Positions 34,696 to 51,646 of a DNA stretch of 64,000 nucleotides are shown one piece after another. A program made the position numbers and the translations under genes. The DNA is taken from assembly GCA_029432815.1 (NCBI GenBank), contig JAROBA010000009.1, positions 62,001-126,000 on the forward strand. The letters run 5' to 3'. Source of the DNA: Pontiellaceae bacterium B1224. Its GTDB lineage: Bacteria; Verrucomicrobiota; Kiritimatiellia; Kiritimatiellales; Pontiellaceae. Positions within the stretch are counted from its first letter, which is position 1. Every line of letters begins with the position of its first letter. Below the pieces are notes generated by a model. That model worked only from the letters and a program-made list of their open reading frames with translations, was not told the DNA's origin and made no database searches.

Positions 34696-34723
34696 CTTCT
34701 TTCTCCTTATTGTTGGTTTCCAA

Positions 34724-34743
34724 GGGGAGGCGCCCGCCTCCCC
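34724..34743 (-). terminator. Strong hairpin between the two passenger-repeat genes
   Basis: GGGGAGGC (34724-34731) and GCCTCCCC (34736-34743) form a perfect 8-bp GC stem with a 4-base loop, 29 bp before the downstream ATG. There is no T run, so partial termination or transcript processing is more likely than full termination. Confidence 0.5.
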
Positions 34744-34760
34744 CAAAAACTGATCCGGGC

Positions 34761-36719
34761 TCAGTATCGCAGCTCGTAGAACAGGACGGTCTCGCTGCCG
34801 ATGGAATTGGTAACCGGCGAACTCACACCTGATTCCGCCATGCCCCATTGGCCGTATACGAGGTTTGCATTGGTCCACACATCGCACGCCGTTCCGCTTT
34901 CCCAGCTCAACACGACCTGACCGCCAGAAATGACGCCCATGGCAACGTCTCCGATCTCCTTGAGCACCGTGGGCGTTCCGAGCACATCGAACTCGCGGTA
35001 AGCAATCACATCATTCCCGCTTGCGCCATCGAGGTATTCATCGAAGTTGCTGAAAGTGATGGCCTTGACGCCGGTGGCAATCACATCGTTGCCGGCCTTG
35101 GGGGTCATATAGACAGCCGTCCAAGAATTGACCGGCGAGGTATTGGGCTCGTAGGTCCCGCTGCTGAGAAGCTCTGTGCTGTCGTCCATATAGGTTACGG
35201 TAACGTCATAGCCCTGATTGGCACGACCACCGGCTCCGGTGTTCCAGGCCGCATAGGTGTTGATGTTGGTGATGTCGTAACCCAGCGTGTTGACGGACGT
35301 ATCGAACGTGATCGTAAATGAATCTTCCGCTTCCAGCAGAACCTGATCGCCGTCGTTTGCAGAAGTACCGGTGGCACCATCATTGATATTGGCCCGCTGA
35401 TCGACGACAATCCCTCCGCTGTTGTCAACGAGGCTCAGGAACGAGGCCTGGTTCGTGTTGGCCAGATCGTCGGTGCTGTACGGCGTAAACGAAGCCGGGA
35501 AAGCATCCGTGGCCGTAGTCCCTGATTTCTGGGTAGAAATGTCCACCAGCCGCACCGGAACCACATCGATCACAAACGTGTTGGTTGCACTGAACCCGTT
35601 GGAGTCTACCACCACCACTTCGGATGTATAGGTGCCGACCGCCATATAGGTGTTAGAAACAACCACGCCGCTGTCCGAGTTTCCATCGCCGAACGTCCAT
35701 GAATAACTGGAGATCGATCCCTCACCGGAAGGTATACTTGCTGAAGCATCGAAAACCACTTCCAGCGGAACTTCCCCCGATGCGGGCGTTGCCGTTGCTA
35801 CGAGTTCCAGCGGTTGTAATTCAGCCGTAATCTCCACGGAATTGCTGGCGGTATTCCCCAGATCATCCATGATGGTAAGCCACGCGGTATAGGTATTGGT
35901 GGCCGCATAGGTGTTGGTGACCACCGCTCCACTGGCCGTATTGCCGTCACCGAAATCCCATGCATAGCTGACAATGGTTCCGCCGGAGATACTGTTGGTT
36001 CCATTAAACACCACTTCCAACGGAGCATAGCCGGAGCTCACAGAAGACTCGATAGCGGCTGCGGTTTCCGGCGGAGGGAGCGCACTGAGAGTTTCTCCGA
36101 CTACTGAGAACACCTGACTGAAAGCATAAAGACTGTTGTCCCCATTGTACGTAAGGTCGCCACCAAGATAGAGCGATTCATAATAGGCATAATCCGCCTC
36201 CGTGATGGTCAGGGTGCCATCGCTGGTTCCGCCACCGATCTTGTCGGCAAAATCAATAGATCCAACCCCGGCGTTATTGCCCGCATCAAAACTCGGTTTG
36301 GTACTGATAGAAGCCGCCCCTCCTCTAATCCTGAGAACCCCCGCAGCTCTATCGCGTCCGATAAAAAATGTACCGGTTAATGTAGACGTTAAAGATCCTG
36401 ACCGAAGATCTATTATGCCATTCCCTCCACTACCATTCCCGAGAAGCATAGCATGACTGCCTGCAAAGCTCACAGGGCCGCCATCAATGATCAGCGTAGA
36501 CACTTTCACATGACCTATCGTCACATTTTTAGTCGTCGAGGTGACCTCGACCGATCCGGCATTGGTAACCGTCAAGGTCACCGCGTTCTGCTGGTAATCC
36601 GGACCAATGATTGCCGTATCAATCACTGAATTCGTTGTATATGATGCCACAATGTTGGCCTGAACGGCTCCCGCGGCCATCACCAATCCCGCCATCAACA
36701 CCTTAATTTTTCGATTCAT
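34761..36719 (-). CDS. Exported protein with passenger repeats, two PKD domains and a GGRANQGY module
   Basis: 652 residues with a signal peptide ending VQA. Residues about 25-215 are paralogous to the 33958 protein (shared S-I-D-F-A-D-K-I-G-G-G and D-G-T-L-T-I-T). Two PKD domains follow (about 225-300 and 310-385), each with W-D/T-F-G-D-G-N. Then comes a roughly 190-residue module (about 390-590; A-W-N-T-G-A-G-G-R-A-N-Q-G-Y and R-E-F-D-V-L-G-T-P) also found in three other proteins of the window. The end is F-Y-E-L-R-Y without PEP-CTERM. It is transcribed divergently from the discoidin kinase gene, 186 bp away. A surface glycan-binding role is inferred. Confidence 0.82.
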   Translation of the reverse strand: MNRKIKVLMAGLVMAAGAVQANIVASYTTNSVIDTAIIGPDYQQNAVTLTVTNAGSVEVTSTTKNVTIGHVKVSTLIIDGGPVSFAGSHAMLLGNGSGGNGIIDLRSGSLTSTLTGTFFIGRDRAAGVLRIRGGAASISTKPSFDAGNNAGVGSIDFADKIGGGTSDGTLTITEADYAYYESLYLGGDLTYNGDNSLYAFSQVFSVVGETLSALPPPETAAAIESSVSSGYAPLEVVFNGTNSISGGTIVSYAWDFGDGNTASGAVVTNTYAATNTYTAWLTIMDDLGNTASNSVEITAELQPLELVATATPASGEVPLEVVFDASASIPSGEGSISSYSWTFGDGNSDSGVVVSNTYMAVGTYTSEVVVVDSNGFSATNTFVIDVVPVRLVDISTQKSGTTATDAFPASFTPYSTDDLANTNQASFLSLVDNSGGIVVDQRANINDGATGTSANDGDQVLLEAEDSFTITFDTSVNTLGYDITNINTYAAWNTGAGGRANQGYDVTVTYMDDSTELLSSGTYEPNTSPVNSWTAVYMTPKAGNDVIATGVKAITFSNFDEYLDGASGNDVIAYREFDVLGTPTVLKEIGDVAMGVISGGQVVLSWESGTACDVWTNANLVYGQWGMAESGVSSPVTNSIGSETVLFYELRY

Positions 36720-36905
36720 CCCTTTATCTCCATTTTATCCTATGTTCCGTTCACCGCCTGGCAAGTGAAGCCGACTCTTTTCCTATTTTTCACCTGTACA
36801 GCATGCCAGAACCAAAAATCCTGCCCATCCACCGTTTGGTAGATGCCAGCACGCCTGTTTTCCCGTACCATTTGCTGAATCATGAGTTCATGCTATAAGG
36901 ATGTT
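36720..36905. promoter_or_regulatory. Divergent promoter region of the first discoidin kinase
   Basis: This 186-bp region must hold promoters for the PKD gene (-) and the kinase gene (+). TTCAC and GTGAA form an imperfectly spaced inverted repeat near 36749-36768, a possible regulator site. No clear -35/-10 pair could be assigned with confidence. Confidence 0.4.
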
Positions 36906-38876
36906 ATGCGACGAATTGCAGTCATAGCCGTGTCATTGCTGCTGGGAGACCTGCCCCAGGCCTTGGCCGACCCGGGGAACGCCCATCTGGAAAAACGGTC
37001 CCTGCCGGAACTGGAACAGCGGTTGGCTGATACCGACGCCGAGCTAGAACAGCTCGCCAGCTATACTCTGCGCGGGGGCACCGGCTCGCTGGGCTATCGA
37101 TCAAAGACACATAACGATCCCAACGTACAGGAGTGGGTTAGAATCGAGCTGGGCGAAGAGGTTCCGGTCGAGCAGATCGTTTTGGTGCCGGCCCTGTGGC
37201 GGGCTGCCAACGACGGCCTTCTGGCCGAGGGATTCCCGACCGCGTTCCGCATTCTTGCGGGAACAGATCAGACGACCCATGTGGTGGCCTCCTTTTCCGA
37301 AGAAGACAGTTTATTGCCCCGCATCGCTCCGCTGGCGGCAACCTTTTCCCCCGTCCAGGCATCCTGGGTCGGAATCGAAACCACGACCCTTTCGCCCATG
37401 ATCCGCGGCGACCTGCACATCCTTGAGCTCTCCGAAGTCATGGTGTTCAGCGGACAGGAAAATCTGGCCCTCAACCGCCCCGTCAGCGCATCAAGCTTCG
37501 ACCGGAGCACCGGGAATCCAAGATTCCTGACCGACGGATTCACGCCCTATCTGATGGATGCCGCCCTGGGCCCTCAGAGCCAGACCAAGCTCATTCGGGT
37601 TGCGCAGCAAGCGCCGCCGCCCTATCTTGAAATTGATCTTCAAACCCCCGGCCCGGTCAACCAGATCAACCTGCACACGGCCGACGTGGCCCTCTCCATC
37701 CCGATGCAGCGTCTGAGCACCTGGGCGGTACCCCGCCATGTCCGCATCACCGGAGCCAACCGCACCGACTTTTCGGATGAAACGGTCCTGTGCGAATACC
37801 GACAGGAATCGCTCTACGACAACGGCCCCATCATCATGCGCCGCTTCCCGGAAATCACCTGCCGCTATATCCGCATTGCAATCCTTGATCCCCGTCCGAT
37901 CGTTTCAGACCAGGAAACGGTACATGAGATCGCTTTCACGGAAATCGAAGTGTTCTCCGGCGGGCTGAATATGGCGCGTGGTGCGCCGGTCACCCACAGC
38001 CGCGGCCTGAAACCGTATGATCAGGCGCTGGCACGAATCACCGACGGGCTCAACTACTATGGAGAGATCCTGCCCATACGGGATTGGATGAACCAGTTGG
38101 CGCGCCGTCACGACCTTGAAACCGGACGCCCCCTCATTGTTGCCGAGATGAATGTCCGCTATACGCGCCAAAAAACCAACCTGCACCGTTTGGCCTGGCT
38201 CGCGGCCATACTCGGGGTTGGCATTGCCTTCGCCATCCTGGTCGAACGCTTCATCCACCTGCGCCAGCTCACCCGGATGAAAGAGCAGTTTGCCGCCGAC
38301 CTGCACGACGAACTGGGTGCCAACCTGCATACCATCGGGCTGCTGAGCGACCTCGCCGAGGAAACGCGCGAAAACCCGGAGGAGCAAAACGAATATCTTC
38401 ATCGCATCCGAACCGTGACGGAGCGATCCGGAAAGGCCATGCGCAATGTGGTCGACCTGCATGAGTCCAGCGACCTGTTTGTGGGATTAAGAGCGGACAT
38501 GCAGCGGGCGGCGGAACGCATCGTCACCCGGTTGGAACACGATCTTGCAATCGAGGGAGAGGAACTCCTTTCCCGGCTGAAGCCGCGCCAACGGATCGGT
38601 CTGTTTCTTTTCTACAAGGAATGCCTGATCAACATCTGCCGCCATTCCGGTGCCACCCGGCTCAGTACCCGCCTGACAGCCAGTCCTGAAGAAGTCCGCC
38701 TGCTGATCACCGACAATGGTCGGGGATTGCCGGATTCCATGCAAAACGGAATTCCTCCATCACTCAAACGCCGGGCAAAACTGCTCAGGGCAAAACTGAC
38801 CGTCGAAAGTCCCGCGGAAGGGGGAACACGCATCACGTTAACACTCAAACCCCGAAAATTAGGATTTATCAAATGA
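36906..38876 (+). CDS. Sensor histidine kinase with discoidin-like sensor domains (copy 1)
   Basis: The ATG at 36906 follows AAGGA and begins a signal peptide (M-R-R-I-A-V...). The 656-residue protein has two discoidin/F5-8C-like beta-sandwich domains predicted outside the membrane (about 55-183 and 186-352). Each ends with an E-V-M-V-F-S-G or E-I-E-V-F-S-G strand, a hallmark of such domains. A single membrane helix (428-450) leads to a HisKA_3 domain with F-A-A-D-L-H-D-E-L-G (His467) and a HATPase domain (N-I-C-R-H-S-G-A, D-N-G-R-G-L-P). This is the NarX/DegS class that signals to LuxR-type regulators. Discoidin domains often bind glycans, so polysaccharide sensing is inferred. The stop overlaps the regulator ATG (ATGA). 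Confidence 0.88.
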   Translation: MRRIAVIAVSLLLGDLPQALADPGNAHLEKRSLPELEQRLADTDAELEQLASYTLRGGTGSLGYRSKTHNDPNVQEWVRIELGEEVPVEQIVLVPALWRAANDGLLAEGFPTAFRILAGTDQTTHVVASFSEEDSLLPRIAPLAATFSPVQASWVGIETTTLSPMIRGDLHILELSEVMVFSGQENLALNRPVSASSFDRSTGNPRFLTDGFTPYLMDAALGPQSQTKLIRVAQQAPPPYLEIDLQTPGPVNQINLHTADVALSIPMQRLSTWAVPRHVRITGANRTDFSDETVLCEYRQESLYDNGPIIMRRFPEITCRYIRIAILDPRPIVSDQETVHEIAFTEIEVFSGGLNMARGAPVTHSRGLKPYDQALARITDGLNYYGEILPIRDWMNQLARRHDLETGRPLIVAEMNVRYTRQKTNLHRLAWLAAILGVGIAFAILVERFIHLRQLTRMKEQFAADLHDELGANLHTIGLLSDLAEETRENPEEQNEYLHRIRTVTERSGKAMRNVVDLHESSDLFVGLRADMQRAAERIVTRLEHDLAIEGEELLSRLKPRQRIGLFLFYKECLINICRHSGATRLSTRLTASPEEVRLLITDNGRGLPDSMQNGIPPSLKRRAKLLRAKLTVESPAEGGTRITLTLKPRKLGFIK

Positions 38877-39532
38877 ATATCAACGTCATGCTGGTGGAAG
38901 ACAGCCCGGAATACCGGGACGTCATAGAAATCGCCATAAATAAAGAAACGAACATGGTGTTATCGGGAACGTTCGGGGCGGCGGAAGTGGCGCTGCGGAG
39001 CCTGCAGGATCCTGTACAAAGCACTAAACCGGATATCATCCTGCTTGATCTGAACCTCCCCGGCATGTCCGGGCTTGATGCCATTCCCTGGATTGGAAAA
39101 TACGCCCCTGCCGCCAAAATCATCATCCTTACGCAGTCCAACCGGGAAGCCGACGTCTTGCAGGCGATCTCACAAGGAGCTTCCGGCTATCTGCTGAAAT
39201 CCTCCACCGTGAAGCAGATCAAGGAAGGCATCCGCAGTATCATGAACGGAAATGCCCTGTTAGACGGCGGCGTGGCCAGATACATCACAGATGCAATAAA
39301 AACAAAATCAGCAAAGGTTCCGCTTGAGAAACCACTCTCCGAACGGGAAATGGAAATCCTCACGTTACTCGGAGACGGACTGGTTAAGAAGGAAATCGCC
39401 AACCGGCTTGACATCAGCTTTGGCACTGTAGCTACCCACATCCGCCACATCTACGAAAAGCTCCATGTGGAAAACGCCCCCGCCGCCATCTCAAAAGCCT
39501 ACAAAAGCGGCATTCTCCCTTCCGGGGATTAG
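38873..39532 (+). CDS. NarL/LuxR-family response regulator (copy 1)
   Basis: 219 residues. The receiver domain has E9/D10, phospho-acceptor D59 in L-L-D-L-N-L-P-G, T-Q-S-N and K-S-S-T. The C-terminal LuxR helix-turn-helix (about 150-215) contains L-S-E-R-E-M-E-I-L and the recognition region F-G-T-V-A-T-H-I-R-H-I-Y-E-K-L. It is overlapped by 4 bp with the kinase and is clearly its partner. It is a close paralogue of the 50999 regulator. Confidence 0.93.
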   Translation: MNINVMLVEDSPEYRDVIEIAINKETNMVLSGTFGAAEVALRSLQDPVQSTKPDIILLDLNLPGMSGLDAIPWIGKYAPAAKIIILTQSNREADVLQAISQGASGYLLKSSTVKQIKEGIRSIMNGNALLDGGVARYITDAIKTKSAKVPLEKPLSEREMEILTLLGDGLVKKEIANRLDISFGTVATHIRHIYEKLHVENAPAAISKAYKSGILPSGD

Positions 39533-39963
39533 CACCTTTCACAAACCAGATGACTTTCCCCTACAGTAAGGACGAAACGGGCAATGCTTCATTGGCTGCG
39601 TCATAGATCCCACTAAGCCGAGCATATGGACTCATGCTTCCAGCTCTCTCTATAAACCTAGATCCGGGAATGAAAATGAAGGAAACGGTATTTTATCCAA
39701 TGATACCGGCATCAAACCCAAAACACGCTTCACACCCACAGGGTTCGTCTTGTTGTTTCATTCATGTTCACCGTTTTCACCACATCCACTGCGCTTTTAA
39801 ACCCTAGAGGTAGGCAACTACATCTGCGGGTTTAAAATCTTGTGGCTGCAGTAAACTTGGCCATTCCCGAATCTAGGATAAAAGCCGTTTTTTTGACCTG
39901 CTCGCAATGTGCAGGATTTATCGCACAGGCCACCACGTGGCCTATAAGGGCGCAGAAAAAACC
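39533..39963. other. Non-coding gap between converging genes
   Basis: This 431-bp stretch lies between the 3' ends of the regulator (+) and the SHD1 gene (-). No convincing gene is present. Its one clear feature is a long hairpin at 39795-39837. Confidence 0.6.
39795..39837. other. Long two-part hairpin in the convergent gap
   Basis: Outer arms TTTTAAACCC (39795-39804) and GGGTTTAAAA (39828-39837) pair perfectly. Inside, AGAGGTAG and CTACATCT pair at seven of eight positions around a GCAA tetraloop. The total is about 17 base pairs with one small internal bulge. It may end transcripts from both sides, though no T run follows, or it may be a small structured RNA or relic repeat. Confidence 0.5.
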
Positions 39964-41850
39964 TTATTCATTTCTCATCCAGTCCGGGCGATCCATCACG
40001 GTGGGCCGGGGCGGGGTAACACGCTCCCCTGCTCGATTAAAATGCCTGCTCACCGGGAGCCTTTTGAGCTCCGTCAGAATATCGAACAGAAAATTACTGG
40101 AGGTCTTATGCTGGATAATCTTTCCGCGCGAATCGGACATCGTAATCAAAAATCCACCATATTTCACACCGCGCATTGGAGCGGTGTCGCGGGTCGCCAT
40201 TCGATCCACCCGGACGGGTTCACCATAGAATTCGTGAGATTTATTATTCGAATCGTCCGGCGTAAACGTCGTTGACTCCCGAGCCAGCAAGACATAGTTA
40301 TCCCCGTCCACCTCTTCTCCAATCGCAAAATATTGAAGGGTGAGCGGATAGTTGTAGTCGCCGGTTCCTTTTTGCTTAATCTGCAAACCGAATGTGTACT
40401 CAAAGAGTTGCTGGTTAAGCACCGCCGACGACCAGGGCGGAGGATCCGGCGGTTCGATCTGTTTGCTTTTTTTAGTAAAATTGATATCGAAATCAGGAGG
40501 GGTTGCCAGATTGACATAGTGCTGATCGGCCTCGGAAAGCTGCGTGTAAGGAACCTTATGCTGCTTTCCGTTTTCTGTTTTAACAACCACATAGCTGGCC
40601 ATCTTCGTCATAAACTCAGCTTCAAATGTATTGTCATCTGCTGTGGTCCAGAGGCGCATGAGTTCCTCCTCAACCGGTTCTGCAGCCGGCGGTTCCGGCT
40701 CAACCGTGACGGCAGCAGCTCGGGGTTTACTCTTATAGTCGCGAAATACCGGGCCGTTTGTTACCGAGGCATCGCCGGGGTCCAGTCTGTACCAGATGTC
40801 CTCTGCCATGGTCAGCGTAGGCTCTTCCGTCTTGAACATGGGTAGCTTCGGGCCCAGTCGATAGGGGTTCGTTGGATACTCTTCGCCCTTCACTTCCACG
40901 ACCAGCATATAACAGGAAATGGCCCCGTTAACCTCTCCGAAGATCACATCCATATCCACCGGTTCGCCGGCTTTGAGGGTAATCCAATCCCCGATGACGG
41001 CATATTGGTTGCCCAGCACAAAGCGTCTTGAGTCCGAAGCATCCGACTGCCACAAAGAAGCGAACGCATCCTCATTGGCCCCGGGCCAGCAGGCGATCAG
41101 ATTAATCTTCCCGTCCACCCGCACCGCAAACAATTCATCTCCGTGCCCCCGGAACCGGAATGTAATGTCCTCGGGATAAACGAGCTTCCCTTTGTAGTGC
41201 AGCATAAAAAGACCCGCCGCAGTACCGGACTGGCCAAACGCTTCCGGCGCCAGGTTCGCAGGAAGCGGAGGAATCATGAAATGGGTAGTATACAGCTTTT
41301 TAGGTGCCCGGTAATATTTTGCCCAGACAGAAGGTTTCCAACCTCTCACCATAAACTCTTTGACGTCATGCCGGAACTCTTCCGTTGAATACGGATAAAG
41401 GCTCCCATCGCGGCGGCGCTTCATATCATAAAAAGTGCCTTCAAAATCGTTCCCGATACTCATGCCTCCGCCAAACGGAGTGACGTCACTCAAATCCGGC
41501 GTTAAATCGAATCCGGCATACCCACCACCGGTGCCAACCCCATCGCCGATCCCACTCATTTCCGGCAGATAAATCTCCGGCATATCGGCGCGCTGCACCT
41601 TAGTGACGATTCGTTCTGAAGATCTGGGCTTGGAATCTTTTTTTACCTTCACCTTCGGCTTTTTGAGTTTCATTTTCGGGCGTTCAACCGGCTTCGGCGG
41701 AACAAACTTTTTTTCCTCCTTATTCACCACATTGAAAACCACCAGCAATCCGGCCAGCATAAATACAGCCGCATGCACCACCAGACTGATGACCAATCCA
41801 CTGGGAGCTCCCTTATTAATCTTCTGACTCTTTTTACTTTGCTGCGTCAT
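39964..41850 (-). CDS. Membrane-anchored protein with TonB-like N-terminus, PA14-like and SHD1 domains
   Basis: 628 residues; AGGAG precedes the ATG. A single helix near residues 18-40 (L-V-I-S-L-V-V-H-A-A-V-F) is followed by a Pro/Lys-rich stretch (P-P-K-P-V-E-R-P-K-M-K-L-K-K-P), which is the layout of TonB-type energy couplers. The central region (about 130-330; F-E-G-T-F-Y-D-M-K ... F-R-G-H-G-D-E-L-F-A-V-R-V-D-G) resembles PA14-like lectin domains. Around 400-455 is an SHD1-type domain (L-W-T-T-A-D-D-N-T-F-E-A-E-F ... V-P-Y-T-Q-L-S-E-A-D). The C-terminal 150 residues are unrecognised. No ExbB/ExbD genes are adjacent, so a TonB role is uncertain. Confidence 0.7.
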   Translation of the reverse strand: MTQQSKKSQKINKGAPSGLVISLVVHAAVFMLAGLLVVFNVVNKEEKKFVPPKPVERPKMKLKKPKVKVKKDSKPRSSERIVTKVQRADMPEIYLPEMSGIGDGVGTGGGYAGFDLTPDLSDVTPFGGGMSIGNDFEGTFYDMKRRRDGSLYPYSTEEFRHDVKEFMVRGWKPSVWAKYYRAPKKLYTTHFMIPPLPANLAPEAFGQSGTAAGLFMLHYKGKLVYPEDITFRFRGHGDELFAVRVDGKINLIACWPGANEDAFASLWQSDASDSRRFVLGNQYAVIGDWITLKAGEPVDMDVIFGEVNGAISCYMLVVEVKGEEYPTNPYRLGPKLPMFKTEEPTLTMAEDIWYRLDPGDASVTNGPVFRDYKSKPRAAAVTVEPEPPAAEPVEEELMRLWTTADDNTFEAEFMTKMASYVVVKTENGKQHKVPYTQLSEADQHYVNLATPPDFDINFTKKSKQIEPPDPPPWSSAVLNQQLFEYTFGLQIKQKGTGDYNYPLTLQYFAIGEEVDGDNYVLLARESTTFTPDDSNNKSHEFYGEPVRVDRMATRDTAPMRGVKYGGFLITMSDSRGKIIQHKTSSNFLFDILTELKRLPVSRHFNRAGERVTPPRPTVMDRPDWMRNE

Positions 41851-42094
41851 CTCTACTCCTCGTCTGAAACAGGTTTAGTTTTTATACTTTCCGTGAAAAT
41901 GATTCACTGGATACCCGTCTAAGTCTGAATAAATAACGCTCCCACAACATCCGCTTGGACAGATTAAAGTCTGCCGAAAAGTTATATCTCATTGCCCGAA
42001 AGATGTCTAGTCCACCATTTGGCTGACACTCAGATTCTAAACCGGCTCCCGGCCTCACCAGAACAACCTTCCTGACGCCGGTATATTTTTCAAA

Positions 42095-43781
42095 TTACGG
42101 AAGCCAGCGTACACGGTAAAAACCGGCACTGTTCGTTGCGGGCATTGTCAGCTCCAGCGGAGACGTCTCCAGCGAAATAAAATTGGTTATGGTTTTCCAG
42201 AGACTGGAATTCATCAGGCTGGGGCTCCACTCCAGCAAATATTCCGCACCGACAACGCCGGAAAACTGGGTATAGAAAAACCCATTGGAAGCCATCGTTC
42301 CCCCCGCAACAAACGCCGGAATATATTCATCCCCCAACAGGGTCGGCGTACCGAAGATATCGAACTCGCGCCCGATCACGACGCCGTTTGCATTGGCATT
42401 ATGGGTGATATCGAATGTCACGGCTTTGACGCCCGAGCCAAGTACACGGCCGGGCGCATTTGTAAACGAAACGGTGGTCCAGTACGACGCCGGATTGTTC
42501 GGTTCCCAGTGCTCCGGCCCGGCCAGCGTGGCGGCTGAACCATCCATGAAAGTGAGGATGATTTCATAGCCCTGATTGGAGCGGCCGCCGCTGGCCGGAT
42601 TCCATCCGAAACACGTACGTATCCCGGTCAGGTCGTATCCCCGTCTATTCACCGACGTGTCAAAAGTTACAGTGATGGAGTTATCACTCATCATTCTGAC
42701 ATTACTGGTTTCTCCTGTATTGTCTGCATCCGTACCGACACTTCCATTAAACAGCTCAGCATGCTGGGTTGCGGCTTCATCGCCTCCTGTCGCTGAGCTT
42801 TCAAAATAGTGAGTTTGCGCTAAATCGCCGTCGCTGCATGCAGGAGCTGTATCTGCCTGGCTGGAGGAAACCTGATAATTTATATTGGGAACCTGCCCCA
42901 CATGCACAGAGTCCAGACTCATGGTTTTGGCCTCGGCATTGACCACCCGCAATGTATGAAGGCCTTTATCCAGGCTGTTGTGGCTATAAACCGTTTCCTG
43001 ATAGAGCGTACTGCCGCTGTAGCAGCTGACCGTCTGCCGGAACACGCCATCGATGTAGACATCAACATTGCCCATGTTGCTGGCTTTCATTGATTCGAAG
43101 GAGACGTCCGTACCATAGAACGTGATTTCAAACGCATCCCCGGCCGTAGTGGTGGTTTGAATATCACCATTGTAGCAGCTCGTAATTTCCTGCGTTGACC
43201 AGGAGCCGGTATAAACCACCCCTGCTGTATCGTTCAGATGCTCATAGCCATCGGTCTTCACAAAAGAAAAAGATTCCGGATGCTGATTGCGGTAGATGCT
43301 GCAGTCGACTGTTTCTCCTCCGGCAATGGAGTTATACAGCAGCCAGAAGCTTTGTTTGGTGGTTACATCGGTTCCGTTGACCGAACGAATCAAGTCATAT
43401 TGCTCGAATCCCTGCAGCTGCGCATAACTGCCATACGGAAGCGACTCGAAGAAAACTCCATTCAAATCCGGAGCTCCCAGCACCGACTGAATGGATCCAT
43501 CATAAATGCTGGAAATAAACCCGCCCATCAGAGGCTCGGCATCCGAGTTCGGAGACCGTCCTGCATCATAGCTGATGGGATCCGGTTCCGGAGCCCCCGG
43601 TTTTCCGAACTGGTCCATCGGGAAGTTCACAAAACCCAGTGCCAGTGCCGGGGAGTTTGTTGCAACGGTATAATCGTTGGATCCCGGATTAATAAACAGC
43701 GGATTGGCAATCACCGAATTTTCGTCGCTCGCCGTCCAGCTGAAAGAATTAACAGTTACATCATCGTCCCCGTTAAAAAAA
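42095..43781 (-). CDS. Distal part of frameshifted beta-helix gene: PDZ, binding domain and GGRANQGY module
   Basis: This is the continuation of the 43773-45683 reading frame after a one-base shift in a T7 run (43775-43781). The first residues (D-Y-T-V-A-T-N-S-P-A-L-A-L-G-F-V-N-F-P-M-D-Q-F-G) match the C-terminal helix segment of the neighbouring helix proteins, so the two halves are one ancestral gene. Then follow a PDZ-like domain (G-V-F-F-E-S-L ... I-R-S-V-N-G-T-D-V), a small carbohydrate-binding-like domain, the roughly 190-residue GGRANQGY module and a C-terminal end F-Y-R-V-R-W-L-P. There is no plausible independent start or ribosome site, so as written this part would not be made without frameshifting or slippage. 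Confidence 0.7.
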
Positions 43782-45683
43782 CAGATTGTAATCCGTGGTG
43801 GCCTCCTCCCCGGCCCCGCCGACACTGATGGGATGATAGGCCGAAGGGTTGACAATGATATTATTGAAAAGTTCATCCCGGCAGGTGTCGTACCAGACAT
43901 GAAGATCAAGGCCGCGGTTAATCATGATGTTGTTATAAACCTTCCGACTGAATCCTTCGCGCAGCTTAACGGACGTATTCAGAATGAGGTTGTTATAGAT
44001 CTCATAATTGCTCGATCCATCATCGAGATCGATGCCGAACTCCGTGGGTTCATCGTAGTGAAAACGATTGTTGCGAATATGCGTCGTTTTCCATGCTTCC
44101 AGAAAAGCGTAAGGCCGCTTAATTGCCCCGTCTCCTCCGTTGTGGTTGTAGCCGCCAATGGAGTAAAAGCGGTCGCGCCCCCAGGAGTTAAATGGGCCAT
44201 GATCGTTGGTTTCGCGAATGCAGTCAAAAACATCATTAAACTCAATAATATGGCCGCCCCACGCCCCGTCGCAGATATTGATGCCTGAACGCGGACTGCT
44301 GTGAATCGTGTTATGACTAACCGTAATACTTTCCGCCAAAAACAGATTTACACCGGCGGTCTGTTTTTCAAATCGCCCCATATTAAACATATGGTTATAG
44401 CTGATCGTAATATCCTTCGGATAATCCTCGGTTTTGGGGCCGATCTCCGTATTGATGTCTATATCCGCAGCGTCGGTAATATAATCGTCCCACTCATTTG
44501 TATCCCATAATGCGACCTTGCTACCGCAAACGTTGACGCAGGTTGCCCCGTTGTCGAGGAACTCATTATTCGTGACAAGGTGGTTTCTATTGTAGGCACT
44601 GAAGAAAACTCCGTTACCTCCGATGCGGTCAAAAACTGAATCTGAGACCGTCACGTTTTCCGCATCCTGTATGAAGATGGCACCGGCCCGTGCCAGACGC
44701 CAGTCGCTGCGATTCATCGGCTCATACTCGCGCGTAAACAGGGTGCGGTGGGTGCCGGTGAAGGCGAAATTTCTGAAGGTGAGATATTTAACTTTTGTTT
44801 CGGCTGTCCCCACCACGCGAATTAGCTCTTCAAGCGACGCGGCTTCAACGATTGCGGTCGACAGATCAACGCCGTTCGGCGGATAGAAATATAGTTTTCC
44901 ATCCGATTCGTCGTAGAACCATTCGCCCTCGGCGTCGAGTTCTTCAAAAATATTTTCTACCATACGGTAGGTACTGTGAACACCGGAACCGCGGTTGTTA
45001 TCGCCCACCCAATCCAGATTCAGTGAACTGCCGCTCTTCCCTGTAATCCGATAGGAATTTCCGCCCCACCGGCTTCCGTGCAAACCACGATAAAAGCCTC
45101 CCGCCGGATCAGACCAGCTGTTTACTTTGGTGCTGCCGATGGCATCACTTGCATAGCCGTTGAGAATGGCTGTATCCTCATCGTAGTTCGGATATCGCGC
45201 CATCACCTGAAGATCGTTGTTTATAAACAGCATGTCGAAATCGAGCCCCGAGCCAACCGTTGCCACCTGAATATTTCCGGAATGGGTGGTCCATGTCGGA
45301 GACAACGGAATGGCACCACTGATGATCACGGTTTCATTGGAATAACCGGAATACGTAACCGGAACAGAAGCAGAGCCTGAATCGGTGGTTCCGAATTCAA
45401 GTGCTGAACCTAAATAATAGGTCCCTCCCCTTACCCAGACATGGATCGGATCAATGGCTGAAGGCAACGCGGCACGTACGGCCAACTGTGCTTTTTCCAA
45501 GGTTTGGAAAGGAGCATTCATGCTGCCCGCATGGGAGTCGTTTCCCGTCGTTGCCACATAGTAGTCTAGCGCAAACACATTCAATCCAAATAGCAAGGCG
45601 CCGACAACAGCCGCGCTTTTTCCCACCCTCTTCCAGACATTGGAACACGGACCAAAAAATTTACTTTTTTTATTCCACATCAT
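43773..45683 (-). CDS. Secreted right-handed beta-helix protein, proximal part (GH141-like)
   Basis: 636 residues in frame before a premature TAA at a T7 run. The signal peptide and helix cap (Y-Y-V-A-T-T-G-N-D-S-H-A-G) are followed by G-G-T-Y-Y-L-G-S-A-L, F-N-S-W-G-R-D-R-F and D-L-D-D-G-S-S-N-Y-E-I-Y-N-N-L, the same motif set as the 10536 and 14854 proteins. The ATG at 45680 is an alternative start with better spacing from AGGA. Removing one T at 43775-43781 joins this frame to the distal part, giving about 1195 residues. Three copies (two perfect, one with a mismatch) of the TTCCAA palindrome lie within about 220 bp of the start. Confidence 0.82.
   Translation of the reverse strand: MMWNKKSKFFGPCSNVWKRVGKSAAVVGALLFGLNVFALDYYVATTGNDSHAGSMNAPFQTLEKAQLAVRAALPSAIDPIHVWVRGGTYYLGSALEFGTTDSGSASVPVTYSGYSNETVIISGAIPLSPTWTTHSGNIQVATVGSGLDFDMLFINNDLQVMARYPNYDEDTAILNGYASDAIGSTKVNSWSDPAGGFYRGLHGSRWGGNSYRITGKSGSSLNLDWVGDNNRGSGVHSTYRMVENIFEELDAEGEWFYDESDGKLYFYPPNGVDLSTAIVEAASLEELIRVVGTAETKVKYLTFRNFAFTGTHRTLFTREYEPMNRSDWRLARAGAIFIQDAENVTVSDSVFDRIGGNGVFFSAYNRNHLVTNNEFLDNGATCVNVCGSKVALWDTNEWDDYITDAADIDINTEIGPKTEDYPKDITISYNHMFNMGRFEKQTAGVNLFLAESITVSHNTIHSSPRSGINICDGAWGGHIIEFNDVFDCIRETNDHGPFNSWGRDRFYSIGGYNHNGGDGAIKRPYAFLEAWKTTHIRNNRFHYDEPTEFGIDLDDGSSNYEIYNNLILNTSVKLREGFSRKVYNNIMINRGLDLHVWYDTCRDELFNNIIVNPSAYHPISVGGAGEEATTDYNLFF
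45495..45509. repeat. TTCCAA-N3-TTGGAA palindrome inside the frameshifted beta-helix gene
   Basis: TTCCAA GGT TTGGAA without mismatch, about 175 bp into the gene. It encodes F-Q-T-L-E, a different reading frame of the palindrome from most other in-gene copies. A near-copy with one mismatch is at 45631-45645. Confidence 0.7.
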
Positions 45684-45701
45684 TTTTCCTCTTACTGTTC
45701 A

Positions 45702-45718
45702 TTTCCAACGATTGGAAA
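45702..45718. repeat. TTCCAA-N3-TTGGAA palindrome, intergenic copy 4
   Basis: TTTCCAA CGA TTGGAAA with perfect 7-base arms, 18 bp upstream of the frameshifted beta-helix gene, close enough to overlap its leader. Confidence 0.8.
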
Positions 45719-45898
45719 CCATGCTTTTTTTCTTTGAGGCGGAGACCTATATTAAAAAAAACGATCTGACTTTCGGCACGAACGCACGACAAACGTTAAA
45801 TACCAGCCGCCAGATACATGCGGTATATTGTATATGATCACGAGTCGGCATCAATAATTCGAAAGAATCAGGTCGAGTCTATGATCATATTTGAAGTT

Positions 45899-45932
45899 AA
45901 AAAAAACACTGCGCCCCAAACGGACCGCAGTG
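45899..45932 (-). terminator. Rho-independent terminator of the PEP-CTERM gene
   Basis: On the minus strand CACTGCG pairs with CGCAGTG (45907-45913 and 45926-45932) around a 12-base loop, directly followed by a run of eight T. It lies 23 bp after the stop of the 45956 gene. Confidence 0.85.
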
Positions 45933-45955
45933 CTTACGAAAACAATTCATTGAGC

Positions 45956-46675
45956 TTAGATCATGAATCTGCGGCGGATGAACAGGATTCCCCCTCCGCA
46001 TGCGGTGATCAAACCCAGCGTAGCCGGTTCCGGCACAGCGACACCGACTATATCAAACTCGGTATAGGTCGCAGTTCCGCCAGCATTTGCACCTGTAAGG
46101 AAATCAAACTTAACCGATTTCACTCCGGTTCCGATCATACCGGCATCATCTGAAATTTTCACTTCCGTCCAGACATTGACCTCTCCGTTTTCATCGGCAG
46201 CAGCTACAGTGTTGGCATAATGCGTTCCGTTGGTAATTTCCTCGAACGAATCATCCATATAAATAAAGGTCAGCGTGTATTCCTGGTCCGAACGGCCTCC
46301 GCTCCCCGTATTCCAGGCAGCATAGGTATTAATTCCAGAAATATTATATCCCAATGTGTTCACCGAGGTATCAAGATTGATAGTAATCGATCCTGTGTTG
46401 AACTGCGCCTCAAAGCCTACGCCAACCCCGGCAACTCCATCAAAAAGACGACTCGTTGTATCGCCTCGCCCACCTGTATCTATATCGGAAGCACTCAGAA
46501 ACGTTGCCTGATCCGAATTAGCGAGGTCAGTGGCACTAATGGGGGTAAATGTTCCAGGGAATGGATCAGTTTCCAACGTCCCGGAACCTTGACTGTCAAT
46601 TATGAGTGCAGCACTTGATACGAATGGCAATGCCAGCGCAACAAATGAAGCAACTATTGTCGTCCTTTTTTTCAT
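45956..46675 (-). CDS. PEP-CTERM protein consisting of a GGRANQGY module
   Basis: 239 residues with a signal peptide (about 1-22). Almost the whole mature protein is the roughly 190-residue module shared with the 34761, 42095 and 46781 proteins (A-W-N-T-G-S-G-G-R-S-D-Q-E-Y and T-E-F-D-I-V-G-V). It ends with V-P-E-P-A-T-L-G-L, a hydrophobic helix and R-R-R-F-M-I, a PEP-CTERM signal nearly identical to that of the 33958 protein. It is therefore the minimal form of the module with a surface-sorting tail, flanked by its own terminator and by that of the next gene. Confidence 0.87.
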   Translation of the reverse strand: MKKRTTIVASFVALALPFVSSAALIIDSQGSGTLETDPFPGTFTPISATDLANSDQATFLSASDIDTGGRGDTTSRLFDGVAGVGVGFEAQFNTGSITINLDTSVNTLGYNISGINTYAAWNTGSGGRSDQEYTLTFIYMDDSFEEITNGTHYANTVAAADENGEVNVWTEVKISDDAGMIGTGVKSVKFDFLTGANAGGTATYTEFDIVGVAVPEPATLGLITACGGGILFIRRRFMI

Positions 46676-46731
46676 TCTTTATTTCTCCTTTGTATTTAGC
46701 TTTTCCTTCATAAAAATATTTTTTATCAAAC

Positions 46732-46765
46732 GACCTCCTCTCCGCTAAAGGCGGAAAAGGAGGTC
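46732..46765 (-). terminator. Terminator of the LamG/PKD gene
   Basis: GACCTCCT (46732-46739) pairs with AGGAGGTC (46758-46765). Inside it TCCGC (46741-46745) pairs with GCGGA (46751-46755), giving a long GC-rich stem. On the minus strand a T/A-rich stretch follows. Confidence 0.8.
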
Positions 46766-46780
46766 TGGAGCAGAGATGAG

Positions 46781-48793
46781 CTACTCAAAAATAACCCGAT
46801 AAAACTCAGCTGCCTGGTTTTTCTGAGGCAGAACGATTTTAGTCTGAGGAGGGGTTCCCACCACATTGGTGAACGTGCTCCATGTTCCGACGGCCAGGTT
46901 CAGCGTGCTCTGAACGCTGTACTGATAGGACGAATCGGATGCCCATGAGAGCGAGGTTCCGCCATCTGCCAACTCAAGTACAATCACATCCGGAACCGGT
47001 TGGCCGGATGGAACTCCGAGAATATCAATTTCGCGCCCCACCACAACACCACCTGCATTCGCATTGAAGAAATTATCAAAGGTAACGGATTTAACGTTTT
47101 TGGCCATCGCCAACCCGTTTGTTTCCACAAAGGTCACCTTGGTCCAGTAGTTCGTATCCCCATCGTTTGGTGCCCAATGCTCAGAATCGGCCAGCACCGC
47201 TTCGCTACCATCAGCATAGGTCACCCGAATTCCATAGCCCTGATTCGCGCGACCGCCGCCGCCCGGGTTCCAACCGGCAATGGAGGAAATTTCCGTAATG
47301 TCATACCCGTAGGTATTCACCGAAACGTCAAAATTAAGCGTCACAGAGCTGTTTGCATCCCATCGCACCTCGCCCGCTCCGCTAATGCTTCCATCCGTAT
47401 TGCCGATGCTGCCGTCGAACAGGTTGGTCGTGCTGGTGGCTCCATTAAGCACACCTAAAGCACTGAGAAACTGGGTCTGGGCCAGGTCGTCCGTAAGGAA
47501 GGAAGGCAGCGTGGCAATATCAAAGCCTTCTGCCGTCACAACCAGATCTGCACCTACATATTGCGACACTTCGATAACAACCGAATTTGTATCGATGAGT
47601 CCATTGGAATCAACCACCACAACGGCTGCCGTATAAACACCGGACAGCATATAGGTGTTGGTGGCGTTCACTCCGCTGGCCATATTTCCATCACCAAAAT
47701 CCCAGTCATAGGAAACAATGCTCGTGCTTGAGGTACTGGCAGAAGCGTCGAACGCAACCTCCAGTGGATATTCACCGACAGTGGGTGTTGCCGAGACAGC
47801 GGCCGTAACAAAATGAGCAACCGAGATATCAACAGAACTGGAACCCGAGCTTCCGTTGGCATCGATAACCTCTAGTGAGGCCGTATATTCGCCGGTAGCC
47901 GAATACGTGTTGGTTACAATCATACCGCTGGTGGTGGTGCCATCGCCAAAGTCCCAGTTATAGGAAACAATATTCGTGGAGGACGCACTGCTCGAACCAT
48001 CAAAAATCACCTCAAGCGGTGGCGGACCACCCAACGTGGACGCGGAAATGATGGCCGATGTTTTCATAGTAAAAAGTTCCGTAATTTCAGCTCCGGACAG
48101 CTCGTGGTCATACACCCGAAAATCATCCAGGAGTCCATGGTAGTAAGCGGTCGAGCCCCCCGAACTGCCGATAAAAAAGGAAGTGATACCCGTCATAACA
48201 TTGGTTTGACCGGTTCCGCTTGCATAAGGAGTGGAGTCACCGTTGACATACATGGCCATGGTTCCATCGGTCGCATTTTTGGTGAATACCCAATGATTCC
48301 ATTGCCCCCACAGCGTGGAATAATCGCCAACAGGAACGCCCTTGGTTATGCGATTACGCGGTGTTCCACTCCTGTTTGCATCGAAGTAGATCGTCGGTCC
48401 GCTCCACGGGAAATGACAGTTCAGCAGCCGACTGTTCCCCGTAAAGCCGGAAAAGGCGTTTTGCTGCACTTTCTGACTGGGATCGCCATAGCACCAAAAG
48501 GCGATACTTAATTCATTCGACACCGTTCCCAGAACATTGCCAATTGTAACAGAAGTCGGTATGCCATTTGAAATGGCAGTGGGCGAACCATCAAAATAGA
48601 GGGCTCCGCTACCGATCGCGGCATTATTAGTCCAAACCGGATTGAAGATAACTCCATCATAGTTACCGGTTGAATCGGCGGCCGTCGAACCACTGCCTTC
48701 TTCAAACTCCCAATGACCGACCAGTGCGGCCTGACTGATACCGGCAACCAATACGCCGGCAAATAACAACATAATTTTCCTGCTCACTTTCAT
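46781..48793 (-). CDS. Exported LamG-like lectin with two PKD domains and a GGRANQGY module
   Basis: The ATG at 48793 (MKVSRK...) has GGAG upstream and starts a signal peptide ending SQA; the frame extends to 48904 without support. The 670-residue protein has a LamG/concanavalin-like domain (about 22-230; G-H-W-E-F-E-E-G-S-G), two PKD domains (about 245-320 and 330-405, with W-D-F-G-D-G) and the shared module (about 410-600; G-W-N-P-G-G-G-G-R-A-N-Q-G-Y, R-E-I-D-I-L-G-V-P). It ends F-Y-R-V-I-F-E, without PEP-CTERM. It is divergent from the second discoidin kinase, mirroring the 34761 gene and the first kinase. Confidence 0.85.
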   Translation of the reverse strand: MKVSRKIMLLFAGVLVAGISQAALVGHWEFEEGSGSTAADSTGNYDGVIFNPVWTNNAAIGSGALYFDGSPTAISNGIPTSVTIGNVLGTVSNELSIAFWCYGDPSQKVQQNAFSGFTGNSRLLNCHFPWSGPTIYFDANRSGTPRNRITKGVPVGDYSTLWGQWNHWVFTKNATDGTMAMYVNGDSTPYASGTGQTNVMTGITSFFIGSSGGSTAYYHGLLDDFRVYDHELSGAEITELFTMKTSAIISASTLGGPPPLEVIFDGSSSASSTNIVSYNWDFGDGTTTSGMIVTNTYSATGEYTASLEVIDANGSSGSSSVDISVAHFVTAAVSATPTVGEYPLEVAFDASASTSSTSIVSYDWDFGDGNMASGVNATNTYMLSGVYTAAVVVVDSNGLIDTNSVVIEVSQYVGADLVVTAEGFDIATLPSFLTDDLAQTQFLSALGVLNGATSTTNLFDGSIGNTDGSISGAGEVRWDANSSVTLNFDVSVNTYGYDITEISSIAGWNPGGGGRANQGYGIRVTYADGSEAVLADSEHWAPNDGDTNYWTKVTFVETNGLAMAKNVKSVTFDNFFNANAGGVVVGREIDILGVPSGQPVPDVIVLELADGGTSLSWASDSSYQYSVQSTLNLAVGTWSTFTNVVGTPPQTKIVLPQKNQAAEFYRVIFE

Positions 48794-49006
48794 TATCGCA
48801 TCTCCTTTTCGCTTCATGTTTACAGCCATACCTATCTGACCCATCCAGGACCTGTCATTCTGAACCCGGTGGCCGCCACTAAACCGACTACCGATTGACG
48901 CCAAAATTTAGTACAAGTAAAGAAACCTGTCTTGTCCATCATACTGTTGACACGGAATTTACGGCACCGCCTTTGCGTTTGATGCTTACTATGCTAAATA
49001 GAATGC
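48794..49006. promoter_or_regulatory. Divergent promoter region of the second discoidin kinase
   Basis: This 213-bp region must serve both the LamG/PKD gene (-) and the kinase (+). A TTGACA at 48947-48952 and a TATGCT at 48990-48995 are visible but are about 37 bp apart, too far to form one promoter. No TTCCAA palindrome is present. Confidence 0.4.
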
Positions 49007-50812
49007 ATGAAACTGCTTACCCTCCATTCTGCCGTTCTTTTCCTGATCGGATTGCTGTCGTCTATGGCCAGCGCACAGATCCAGAAAACAGAGTTGCAGA
49101 AAATGGAGCTGGCGGAACTGGAACACTACCTTGACGACATAGACTCAGAACTGGAGCAATTGGCCGCCCTTACATTGCGCCGGGGCGTGGGATCATCGGG
49201 CTATCGGTCCAGTTTGCATGGTCAGCCAGATACAACTGAGTGGATCCGTATTGAATTAGGCGAAGAAACCACCATTGATGAAGTCGTGCTGGTGCCGATG
49301 CTGTGGAGCGATTCTCAAACGGATATTCAGTCCGAGGGATTCCCTCGAGCATTTCGGGTTCTGGCAGGAATGGGCAAGAGCACCAACGTGGTTGCAACCG
49401 TAACTGAAGAAGACCATGTAACGCCTCGTATAGCCCCGTTAACTATATCTTTCCTTCCAGTAAAAGCGTCATGGGTCATCATCGAAGCCAACATCCTCAA
49501 CCCTCGCCTTACGGCGAAACACTATTTCCTGCAGCTCTCGGAAGTCATGGTGTTCAGCGGCATGGAAAATGTGGCCCTGTACAAGCCCGTTAAAGTGCCG
49601 GCCCAGTCACCGGAGACCGGCACCTCGATTGAAGACCGCTTCATTGTGGACGGATTCACGCCCTATATGTTGAACGCGTCCAGTGGAGCCCAAAGTAAAA
49701 CCTTAGTGATCGCTGTCACAGAAACCCTTTCACTACCCACGTTAACCATTGACCTCAAGGCTCCCTATCCGATCAATCAGATCAACCTCCATTCAGCCGG
49801 TTTGCCACACGCTATTCCGATGGAAAACTTCACCAGCTGGGCCGTACCCCGCCATGTGCGTGTGATGGGGGCCAACCAGCCGGACTTTTCCGACGCAACC
49901 GCCTTATGTGAATACCAACAGACAACCATCTACGAAAACGGCCCCGCTATGATGCTGCGTTTTCAGGAAACACAGTGCCGATATGTCAGGGTGGATATCC
50001 TCGATCATCATCCTGTAGTTTCATTAACTCCCAATCCGCCGTTCATTGCTTTTTCTGAAATTGAAGTCATATCTGAAGGGAATAATGTTGCGCTTCACGC
50101 TCCCATCACAACCTCTGCCAACCTTTCCTACAGAGAGGGAACACTGGCTCGGATTACAGACGGTCTGAATTATTATGGGGATATCCTCCCCCTGAAGGTC
50201 TGGATGAATCAGCTGTCTCGACGACATGACCTGGAAACCCTCCGGCCCCATGTTGCCAAAGAATTGAATCGACGTTATGACCAGCAGAAAATAAACCTTC
50301 GCATCACGCGCTGGCTCGCGGCGGCACTCGCGGTTGGCATTGTGATCTCCTCACTCATTGGTCGAATCATGCGCATGCGCCAGAAATCGAAACTTCAGGA
50401 ACGTTTTGCCGCCGACCTGCACGATGAGCTCGGGGCTGATTTACATACGATCGGGCTCTTAAGCGATCTTGCCGGGGAGCCCCTCAGCGACCCCCGGGAG
50501 CTCTCGCGCCTCCTGAAACAAATCCGCACCACCACCGAAGAAACCGGCGAGGCCGTACGGCAATGCGCAACCATGCACATGAATGTGCCCTATCTTAATC
50601 TTGGAGCAACCATGAAACAAATTGCGGAACGCGTGGTGGTTCAGCTTGAACACGAGTTTACCATCGAGGGAGCTGAACATCTGAACAAACTTAAACCGAT
50701 GGTTCGCTCAGACCTGGTCCTTTTCTATAAAGAGGCGCTCATCAACATATGCAGACACGCAGAGGCCTCGAAGCTCGAGCACACACATTCATGCAACATC
50801 ACGGAGAATTAA
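49007..50812 (+). CDS. Sensor histidine kinase with discoidin-like sensor domains (copy 2), cut short by a frameshift
   Basis: 601 residues in frame. Layout and motifs match the 36906 kinase: signal peptide, two discoidin-like domains ending E-V-M-V-F-S-G and E-I-E-V-I-S-E, a membrane helix, HisKA_3 with F-A-A-D-L-H-D-E-L-G-A-D-L-H-T-I-G-L-L, and the start of the ATPase domain (N-I-C-R-H-A-E-A). It then hits a stop after C-N-I-T-E-N because of a shift at a (CA)4 run (50780-50787). The ATP-lid and D-N-G-H-G-L-P motif lie in another frame downstream. As written the protein would lack ATP binding and be inactive as a kinase, though it could still sense or bind ligand. Confidence 0.85.
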   Translation: MKLLTLHSAVLFLIGLLSSMASAQIQKTELQKMELAELEHYLDDIDSELEQLAALTLRRGVGSSGYRSSLHGQPDTTEWIRIELGEETTIDEVVLVPMLWSDSQTDIQSEGFPRAFRVLAGMGKSTNVVATVTEEDHVTPRIAPLTISFLPVKASWVIIEANILNPRLTAKHYFLQLSEVMVFSGMENVALYKPVKVPAQSPETGTSIEDRFIVDGFTPYMLNASSGAQSKTLVIAVTETLSLPTLTIDLKAPYPINQINLHSAGLPHAIPMENFTSWAVPRHVRVMGANQPDFSDATALCEYQQTTIYENGPAMMLRFQETQCRYVRVDILDHHPVVSLTPNPPFIAFSEIEVISEGNNVALHAPITTSANLSYREGTLARITDGLNYYGDILPLKVWMNQLSRRHDLETLRPHVAKELNRRYDQQKINLRITRWLAAALAVGIVISSLIGRIMRMRQKSKLQERFAADLHDELGADLHTIGLLSDLAGEPLSDPRELSRLLKQIRTTTEETGEAVRQCATMHMNVPYLNLGATMKQIAERVVVQLEHEFTIEGAEHLNKLKPMVRSDLVLFYKEALINICRHAEASKLEHTHSCNITEN

Positions 50813-51002
50813 GCTGAAGATTATTGATAACGGCCACGGACTTCCGGATATGGCGTCGCATACGGTTCCCAAATCACTCCGTCGCCGGGCCCGGCTCATG
50901 GGAGCCAAAGTGGAAGTGGAAAATGTGAGTTCAGGCGGAACCAGCATTCTGCTGACATTTAAACCCGGAAACAAGCTGCTTCCCTTCAGGAGAAAATCAT
51001 GA
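50788..51002 (+). pseudogene. Displaced C-terminal ATPase segment of the second discoidin kinase
   Basis: In the shifted frame this segment reads L-K-I-I-D-N-G-H-G-L-P-D-M-A-S ... L-R-R-R-A-R-L-M-G-A-K and ends in TGA overlapping the regulator ATG. It aligns with the end of the 36906 kinase. The stop/start overlap is the same ATGA arrangement as in copy 1, so it is the true 3' end of the kinase gene. Gaining two bases (one CA unit) at 50780-50787, or losing one base, restores one frame. Confidence 0.75.
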
Positions 51003-51646
51003 ATGCCAAAACCAGAATCATGCTCATTGAGGATCACCCGAAATATCGCACGGTCATAGAAATGGCCATGAAAAATGAGGAAGATATGGTCCTCTGCTCC
51101 ATGTTCGGAGCAGCCGAAATTGCGATTAGAAACATCAAAGAAGGGAATAATAAACCGGATCTGATTCTGCTCGACCTTAACCTCCCGGGAATCAGTGGAA
51201 TTGAAGCCATCCCGTTGATTACCTCTCTGATCCCGGAAACGAAAATCATCATCCTGACTCAGTCGAATCACGAGGCCGATGTCCTGAGCGCAATCCAGCA
51301 GGGAGCTGACGGATACCTCTTGAAATCATCCACGGTTAAGAAGATTAAAGAAGCCGTCCGTACCGTGATGAGCGGAGGTGCCTCGCTCGATGGAAATGTT
51401 GCACAGTTTATCCTACAGCAGCTTCAGAAAAAATCCACAATCCAAACAGACAAACCACTCTCGGAACGGGAACTCCAGATTCTGGCACTCCTGGCTGAAG
51501 GCCTGCTCAAAAAAGAAATCAGTAACCGCCTCAACATCAGCTACGGCAGCGTTGCCACCTACATCCGCCGGATCTACGAAAAGCTCAATGTCCTCAACGC
51601 AGCACAGGCCGTGGGCAAAGCGCATCGTTTAGGGCTTCTCGATTAA
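50999..51646 (+). CDS. NarL/LuxR-family response regulator (copy 2)
   Basis: 215 residues. The receiver domain has E11/D12 and phospho-acceptor D59 in L-L-D-L-N-L-P-G; the LuxR domain has L-S-E-R-E-L-Q-I-L-A-L-L and Y-G-S-V-A-T-Y-I-R-R-I-Y-E-K-L. It is closely similar to the 38873 regulator along its whole length, including the recognition helix, so the two may bind related sites. It remains intact although its kinase is frameshifted; phosphate could come from the first kinase (inference). Confidence 0.93.
   Translation: MNAKTRIMLIEDHPKYRTVIEMAMKNEEDMVLCSMFGAAEIAIRNIKEGNNKPDLILLDLNLPGISGIEAIPLITSLIPETKIIILTQSNHEADVLSAIQQGADGYLLKSSTVKKIKEAVRTVMSGGASLDGNVAQFILQQLQKKSTIQTDKPLSERELQILALLAEGLLKKEISNRLNISYGSVATYIRRIYEKLNVLNAAQAVGKAHRLGLLD

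Follow-up and report, generated by a model that had tools for sequence, protein, structure and literature searches.

What do sensor kinases and their response regulators control when they lie back to back with genes for exported proteins and polysaccharide-degrading enzymes, and how could many such pairs work side by side in one cell? This question is raised by two gene units of a Pontiellaceae genome and by the ~90 to at least 130 sulfatase genes found in each of four Pontiella-like genomes; how sulfatase-rich bacteria select the genes to be expressed is not described in the literature found. Both units are located in the window, i.e., the whole stretch of 64,000 nucleotides analyzed here (C204:62001-126000 of a 5.38 Mb source genome in 204 contigs). 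Among the genomes compared, the closest relatives include the Pontiellaceae isolates B12219 and B12227 and Pontiella sulfatireligans.

Each unit consists of a sensor kinase gene, a coupled gene for a NarL-type response regulator and a divergent gene for an exported PKD protein, as given in a preliminary description of this DNA. Pfam recovered F5/8 type C, HisKA_3 and HATPase_c, along with Response_reg, GerE and the two PKD domains. In unit 1, kinase P0002 (36882-38876, forward strand) has two discoidin domains, a transmembrane segment, HisKA_3 and HATPase_c, with the likely true start at the nearly invariant M9 (36906). It is followed by regulator P0003 (38873-39532, forward strand), whose recognition helix reads S-F-G-T-V-A-T-H-I-R-H. 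On the reverse strand, exported protein P0001 (34761-36719) combines two PKD domains with a CBM32-like module of ~190 aa (34953-35510), and a PEP-CTERM-tailed protein (33958-34887, C-terminus VIPEPVTLGLVAAFGGGILFIRRLFMI; true start probably within the called open reading frame) comes second. The remainder of this divergent cluster (5698-33829, reverse strand) encodes CBM/GH-like proteins, a GH29 fucosidase, sulfatases, GH43 and beta-helix proteins.

Unit 2 comprises kinase P0005 (49007-51002, forward strand), regulator P0006 (50999-51646, forward strand; helix of the Y189/R192 type), exported protein P0004 (46781-48904, reverse strand; laminin-G, two PKD domains, CBM32-like module), a PEP-CTERM protein that itself carries the module (45956-46675, reverse strand), and a cluster remainder (39964-45683, reverse strand) with a beta-helix protein, a module protein and a protein with a TonB-like N-terminal anchor. 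In both units the second divergent gene thus has a PEP-CTERM-type tail, a feature absent from the plan first proposed. The kinases share 53% identity over 583 aa, the regulators 60%, and the exported proteins 41% across the two PKD domains and the module; the N-termini of P0001 and P0004 are unlike each other, with laminin-G being found by Pfam in P0004 only. Kinase 2 is frame-shifted near 50770-50805, so that the called frame ends at 50812; the shift precedes the ATP-binding half, which runs on in another frame to the regulator start. Intact relatives exist, and the shift may reflect either decay or an assembly error; it may leave unit 2 without function in this assembly. Stops are also present in kinase copies of some relatives (G016:C145, G008:C194). 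Two further observations concern the neighboring proteins. Small proteins with short matches to the two PEP-CTERM proteins occupy the same second-gene place in many related loci, and the 628-aa protein at 39964-41850, which has the TonB-like N-terminal membrane anchor and no Pfam match, has relatives of 48-51% identity in further kinase clusters (L033, L036, L037).

The gene order was found to be conserved elsewhere. In the studied Kiritimatiellota genomes the regulator, counted when directly behind the kinase, is adjacent in 48 of 50 core loci, and an immediately adjacent divergent gene lies upstream in 43 of these 50. In the loci from named PVC genomes, which overlap with the first set in two isolates (G008 and G016 there), the regulator was present in 72 of 75 testable cases and a divergent neighbor in 55 of 72. 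Large exported proteins are encoded in the divergent runs, together with hydrolases such as sulfatases and fucosidases. For 12 kinases of the source genome, the first 12 kb of the divergent side contain 13 sulfatases in all, against 2.7 expected (Poisson p = 5e-6, a value that ignores the clustering of sulfatases). The G016 kinase that groups with unit 1 (L102) faces a GH29-sulfatase-beta-helix-sulfatase-sulfatase run, the enzymes of which are 78-91% identical to those in the divergent run of unit 1. The PKD/module protein, taken at first to be a fixed partner of the kinase, is the first divergent gene in a subset of loci only and turned out to be one among several possible first genes.

Apart from the core family, a distant kinase subfamily (28-30% identity) shows the same divergent layout (L043 on C129, L110 on C124 of G016, and L101 in G004). 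In L043 and L110 the kinase faces PKD/module proteins, and their modules share 79-87% identity with the unit 1 module; regulator and target therefore seem to have been re-paired. A variant layout was seen in L033, L080, L094 and L103, where the kinase gene comes after a co-oriented gene for a protein of ~900 aa.

The kinases follow one layout, namely an N-terminal signal-like segment, two discoidin/CBM32-like domains, a membrane helix and the HisKA_3/HATPase core. Some Pfam scores lie close to the cut-offs: F5_F8_type_C reached 28.5 for P0002 (cut-off 28.2), HATPase_c of kinase 1 26.0 (cut-off 26.4), and PF22633 32.5 for the P0005 sensor (cut-off 27.8). In a structural model of the kinase (pLDDT 83.5) the core matches DesK and the sensor matches the tandem CBM32 of ZmpB, with 7jnf as sensor fold match; alignment of the full kinase returned kinase cores only among the matches listed, none of them informative on the sensor. 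For the ~190-aa module, no relevant Pfam family was found in 19 members. Its model (mf1701fe122e7, pLDDT 78.7) is a discoidin/CBM32-like beta-sandwich, which aligned with 4a42 at Z 13.3 and an rmsd of 2.4 A over 123 residues. Since sensor and module are both CBM32-like, the kinase and the PKD target protein appear to carry the same, likely sugar-binding, fold.

When the divergent gaps were compared side by side, an imperfect palindrome was visible. In most gaps such a palindrome of 20-26 bp is present, with its center ~42.5 bp ahead of the point where the divergent operon is inferred to start. An unsupervised EM search for palindromic motifs placed a site in ~38 of 45 gaps, while no clear site of this type was found in the other ~7 loci; the log-likelihood ratio was 212 at width 24 and 247 at width 26, compared with 54-64 for dinucleotide shuffles at width 24. 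Odd widths, which correspond to a dimer centered on a base, were tried and rejected (100-129 versus 196-258 for even widths). In held-out PVC genomes, scores of at least 12 occurred in 29 of 54 kinase loci versus 35 of 386 upstream regions of other genes from the same loci (p = 1e-13), some of the 35 possibly being real sites. Four loci without a site at the kinase have a weaker operator of the same type ahead of a co-directional ~900-aa gene, an arrangement seen in L033, L080, L094 and L103.

Operator 1, a 26-bp palindrome found by the EM motif, lies at 36823-36848; the genome contains it exactly once, and the closest other match has three mismatches. Operator 2 (48930-48955) has GTC-type half-sites, and a second copy with two mismatches lies 112 bp upstream of the gene for a 2213-aa F5/8-domain protein on C55. 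A third operator (62868-62893) is situated 315 bp upstream of the gene at 58039-62553, with a TACATT exactly +30.5 from its center. Its match is the operator of a kinase/regulator pair on another contig (C33); operators 1 and 2 do not match it. Two more copies of the C33-type operator carry one mismatch and one carries two, and in the C122 cluster four such sites each stand ahead of a gene or sub-operon.

On the divergent side, the -10-like motif TAnnnT has a preferred distance from the operator center, which is 30.5 bp in the training genomes (exactly so in 16 of 38) and 31.5 bp in the held-out genomes (15 of 31), over a background of ~0.7 per position elsewhere. A weaker copy was found on the kinase side (11 of 38 training loci at 31.5). 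Units 1 and 2 themselves have no perfect -10 hexamer at the expected offset, weak hexamers only. With TAnnnT at 30.5-31.5 bp, the operator center would fall at about -42.5 of the inferred start, which is the position of the lux box, a 20-bp inverted repeat centered at -42.5 (PMC3376562). An inverted repeat of ~20 bp near -42.5, as in class II sites of LuxR/NarL regulators, is hence present when positions are counted from inferred starts. Given this geometry, activation of the enzyme operon by the regulator, bound at a class II position, is most likely; the regulator may act on its own operon as well. As a separate observation, a TATAA-like box starts 11-13 nt before the best-placed ATG in roughly one-third to one-half of the core kinases (e.g., 36906), which implies that the kinase mRNA may be leaderless.

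Taken together, we consider it probable, with fairly good confidence, that each unit works as a two-component system that switches a single polysaccharide-degradation cluster through an insulated operator. The two periplasmic discoidin/CBM32-like domains of the kinase would bind a glycan fragment, as their fold and gene context suggest, upon which the HisKA_3 kinase would phosphorylate its partner NarL-type regulator, as its family suggests. Strong, albeit indirect, evidence points to binding of the regulator dimer to the locus-specific palindromic operator in the divergent gap. Judging by the promoter geometry, the regulator would be placed where a -35 box would lie and would switch on the divergent operon, with its genes for exported binding proteins, sulfatases and glycosidases.

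The strongest competing explanation holds that these are ordinary NarX/NarL-type systems sensing something other than glycans, such as ions, the envelope state or a surface polymer, which came to lie beside catabolic clusters merely by joint recombination. The kinase core is indeed an ordinary DesK/NarX-like one, and discoidin folds take diverse ligands, in other families lipids and proteins too. However, operons for exported proteins, sulfatases and glycoside hydrolases are consistently faced in several phyla, sulfatases are enriched on the divergent side, sensor and target protein alike have CBM32-like folds, and the operator geometry sits on the enzyme-side promoter. A non-glycan signal therefore appears rather unlikely, and glycan sensing is the preferred reading.

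Kinases of this family are numerous. The source genome encodes ~14 core paralogues, which are 41-57% identical and of which two are truncated at contig ends, and further distant ones. Three other genomes of the genus contain 10-15 members each, and one genome of another family within the order contains a single member; in G061 (same genus, 4.4 Mb, 10 contigs) the kinase found only a 27% match. The family was also detected in named GTDB genomes of Akkermansiaceae, Opitutia/Puniceicoccaceae, Pelagicoccus, Pontiella, Rhodopirellula and Aporhodopirellula. Judged by these sequences, it spans Kiritimatiellota, Verrucomicrobiota and Planctomycetota, and the idea of a system confined to Kiritimatiellota had to be given up. 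In a quick tree of 82 kinases the groups are intermixed, with 29 label changes against a minimum of six, and the starred branches force at least eight label changes for the set from the source genome and its relatives. Such an intermixed tree fits old paralogy combined with lateral transfer.

These data also bear on the preliminary view of units 1 and 2 as a duplicated, two-copy cassette. Their like gene plan, their distance of 12 kb and their 53-60% identity would be in accordance with a recent local duplication. In the tree, however, the unit 2 kinase is sister to the C139 kinase (62%) and the unit 1 kinase to the G008 and G016 copies, so that neither window kinase has the other as its closest relative; besides, there are ~14 paralogues in the genome, and operators 1 and 2 fall into different classes. 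As the two kinases are not sisters, a local duplication is very improbable, and the units are better seen as two members of a large family.

How such paralogues could be kept apart is indicated by the operators. Their outer half-site is conserved (YATC/GATR), whereas the inner bases vary by locus yet remain mutually complementary, inner positions 8-11 forming Watson-Crick pairs in 51, 56, 50 and 41 of 73 sites (permutation maxima 45, 36, 33 and 36). Across 67 regulator-operator pairs, the regulator columns coupled most strongly to the operator were 189, 192, 188 and 184, then 13, then 187, the permutations used for this covariation not fully removing shared ancestry. Five of these six columns (184, 187, 188, 189 and 192) belong to the DNA-recognition helix alpha-9, which determines specificity in this regulator family (PMC3246441). 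Shared ancestry inflates coupling scores and should not concentrate them in this helix. When the set was thinned to 43 regulators sharing less than 70% identity in the receiver, the top ranks were still taken by helix columns, joined by receiver column 36; at 15 regulators (less than 60%), the helix signal is no longer resolved.

The residue-base tables of the recognition helix read like a code. H189 goes with A5 in 106 of 112 half-sites, and residues other than H189 with G5 in 17 of 20; T188 is paired with T6 (90 of 92), and D, E or Y188 with C6 (24 of 34). At position 187, alanine corresponds to C10 (48 of 66) and aspartate to G10 (20 of 28), and for position 184 the tables give G184 with A9 (12 of 12), P184 with T9 (8 of 8) and F184 with C9 (8 of 8). 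Nearest-neighbor prediction of half-sites reached 0.73 when based on the helix, compared to 0.65 for the receiver, 0.60 for the rest of the HTH and 0.55 at random. When the code was applied to further loci, the top-scoring sites were mostly weak, and those few that were strong were sites already known. As recognition helix and operator half-site change together, the paralogous circuits appear to be insulated from each other. That the palindrome is instead an RNA element (attenuator or terminator hairpin) is scarcely credible, even though its inner arms are self-complementary around a short TTT-containing center, given that G-T pairs are few and not enriched at the varying inner pairs, that outer position 4/23 varies Y/R without pairing, that the sequence tracks the recognition helix, and that the -10 box at a fixed distance downstream would leave the palindrome mostly outside the transcript from that promoter.

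It appears likely, at a somewhat lower level of confidence than the reading of the single unit as a switch, that these loci represent a PVC-wide and probably laterally spread system, in which each cluster has a private operator, a residue-base code leads readably from helix to half-site, and the wiring is predictable. If this is true, one could predict from sequence how a dozen or more glycan circuits of a genome are wired in parallel, and private docking sites would allow a marine bacterium to operate a dozen sugar sensors at once with no cross-talk between them. The data supply, cluster by cluster, a regulator family, a promoter to be controlled and an operator, and make it possible to test which substrate belongs to which cluster. 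The ~67 natural regulator-operator pairs moreover form a data set for DNA-recognition rules in the NarL family and for the avoidance of cross-talk among paralogous two-component systems.

In the openly licensed literature, no earlier description of the architecture or the operator was found, as the preliminary description had supposed, nor any work matching NarL recognition helices to paralogue operators. The closest report concerns Pontiella agarivorans, where kinase and regulator genes near some sulfatase/GH clusters were suggested to be substrate sensors (PMC10880615). They share the kinase and receiver Pfam families and the GH/sulfatase neighborhoods with the loci described here, whereas discoidin sensors, divergent layout, expansion, distribution and operators are not part of that report. 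In terms of known families, the loci are of the NarX/NarL type, having a HisKA_3 and HATPase_c kinase and a coupled Response_reg and GerE regulator. Like NarX/NarL and DesK/DesR they show coupled kinase and regulator genes of these families and a lux-box-like operator at about -42.5; they differ from those systems in the sensor domain, the target operons and the one locus-specific operator per paralogue. The NCBIfam equivalogues score well below their thresholds (NarL 117 bits versus 250, NarX 47 versus 578). With CBM32/F5/8 type C domains, sensor domain 1 agrees at or near the Pfam cut-off and the module by its modeled fold, the 190-aa module being distinct in lacking a Pfam sequence family.

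The proposed likeness to Bacteroidetes regulators in role, with different parts, held up. Like hybrid two-component systems (HTCS), the kinases are membrane sensors beside one polysaccharide cluster that they are thought to control, with many paralogues per genome. In contrast to the Reg_prop/Y_Y_Y sensors of HTCS, for which Y_Y_Y had no match in the source genome, the sensor here is discoidin/CBM32-like, and while an HTCS is a single polypeptide comprising kinase, receiver and AraC-type HTH, kinase and regulator are encoded by separate genes here, with GerE in the regulator. The SusC/SusD pair of Bacteroidetes PULs, judged by SusD, is likewise missing (SusD_RagB in none of four genomes, Bacteroides control positive), and the features tested exclude the named HTCS and PUL families. 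The system is thus best read as a PVC-wide analogue of polysaccharide-utilization-locus regulation that operates without SusD or hybrid kinases.
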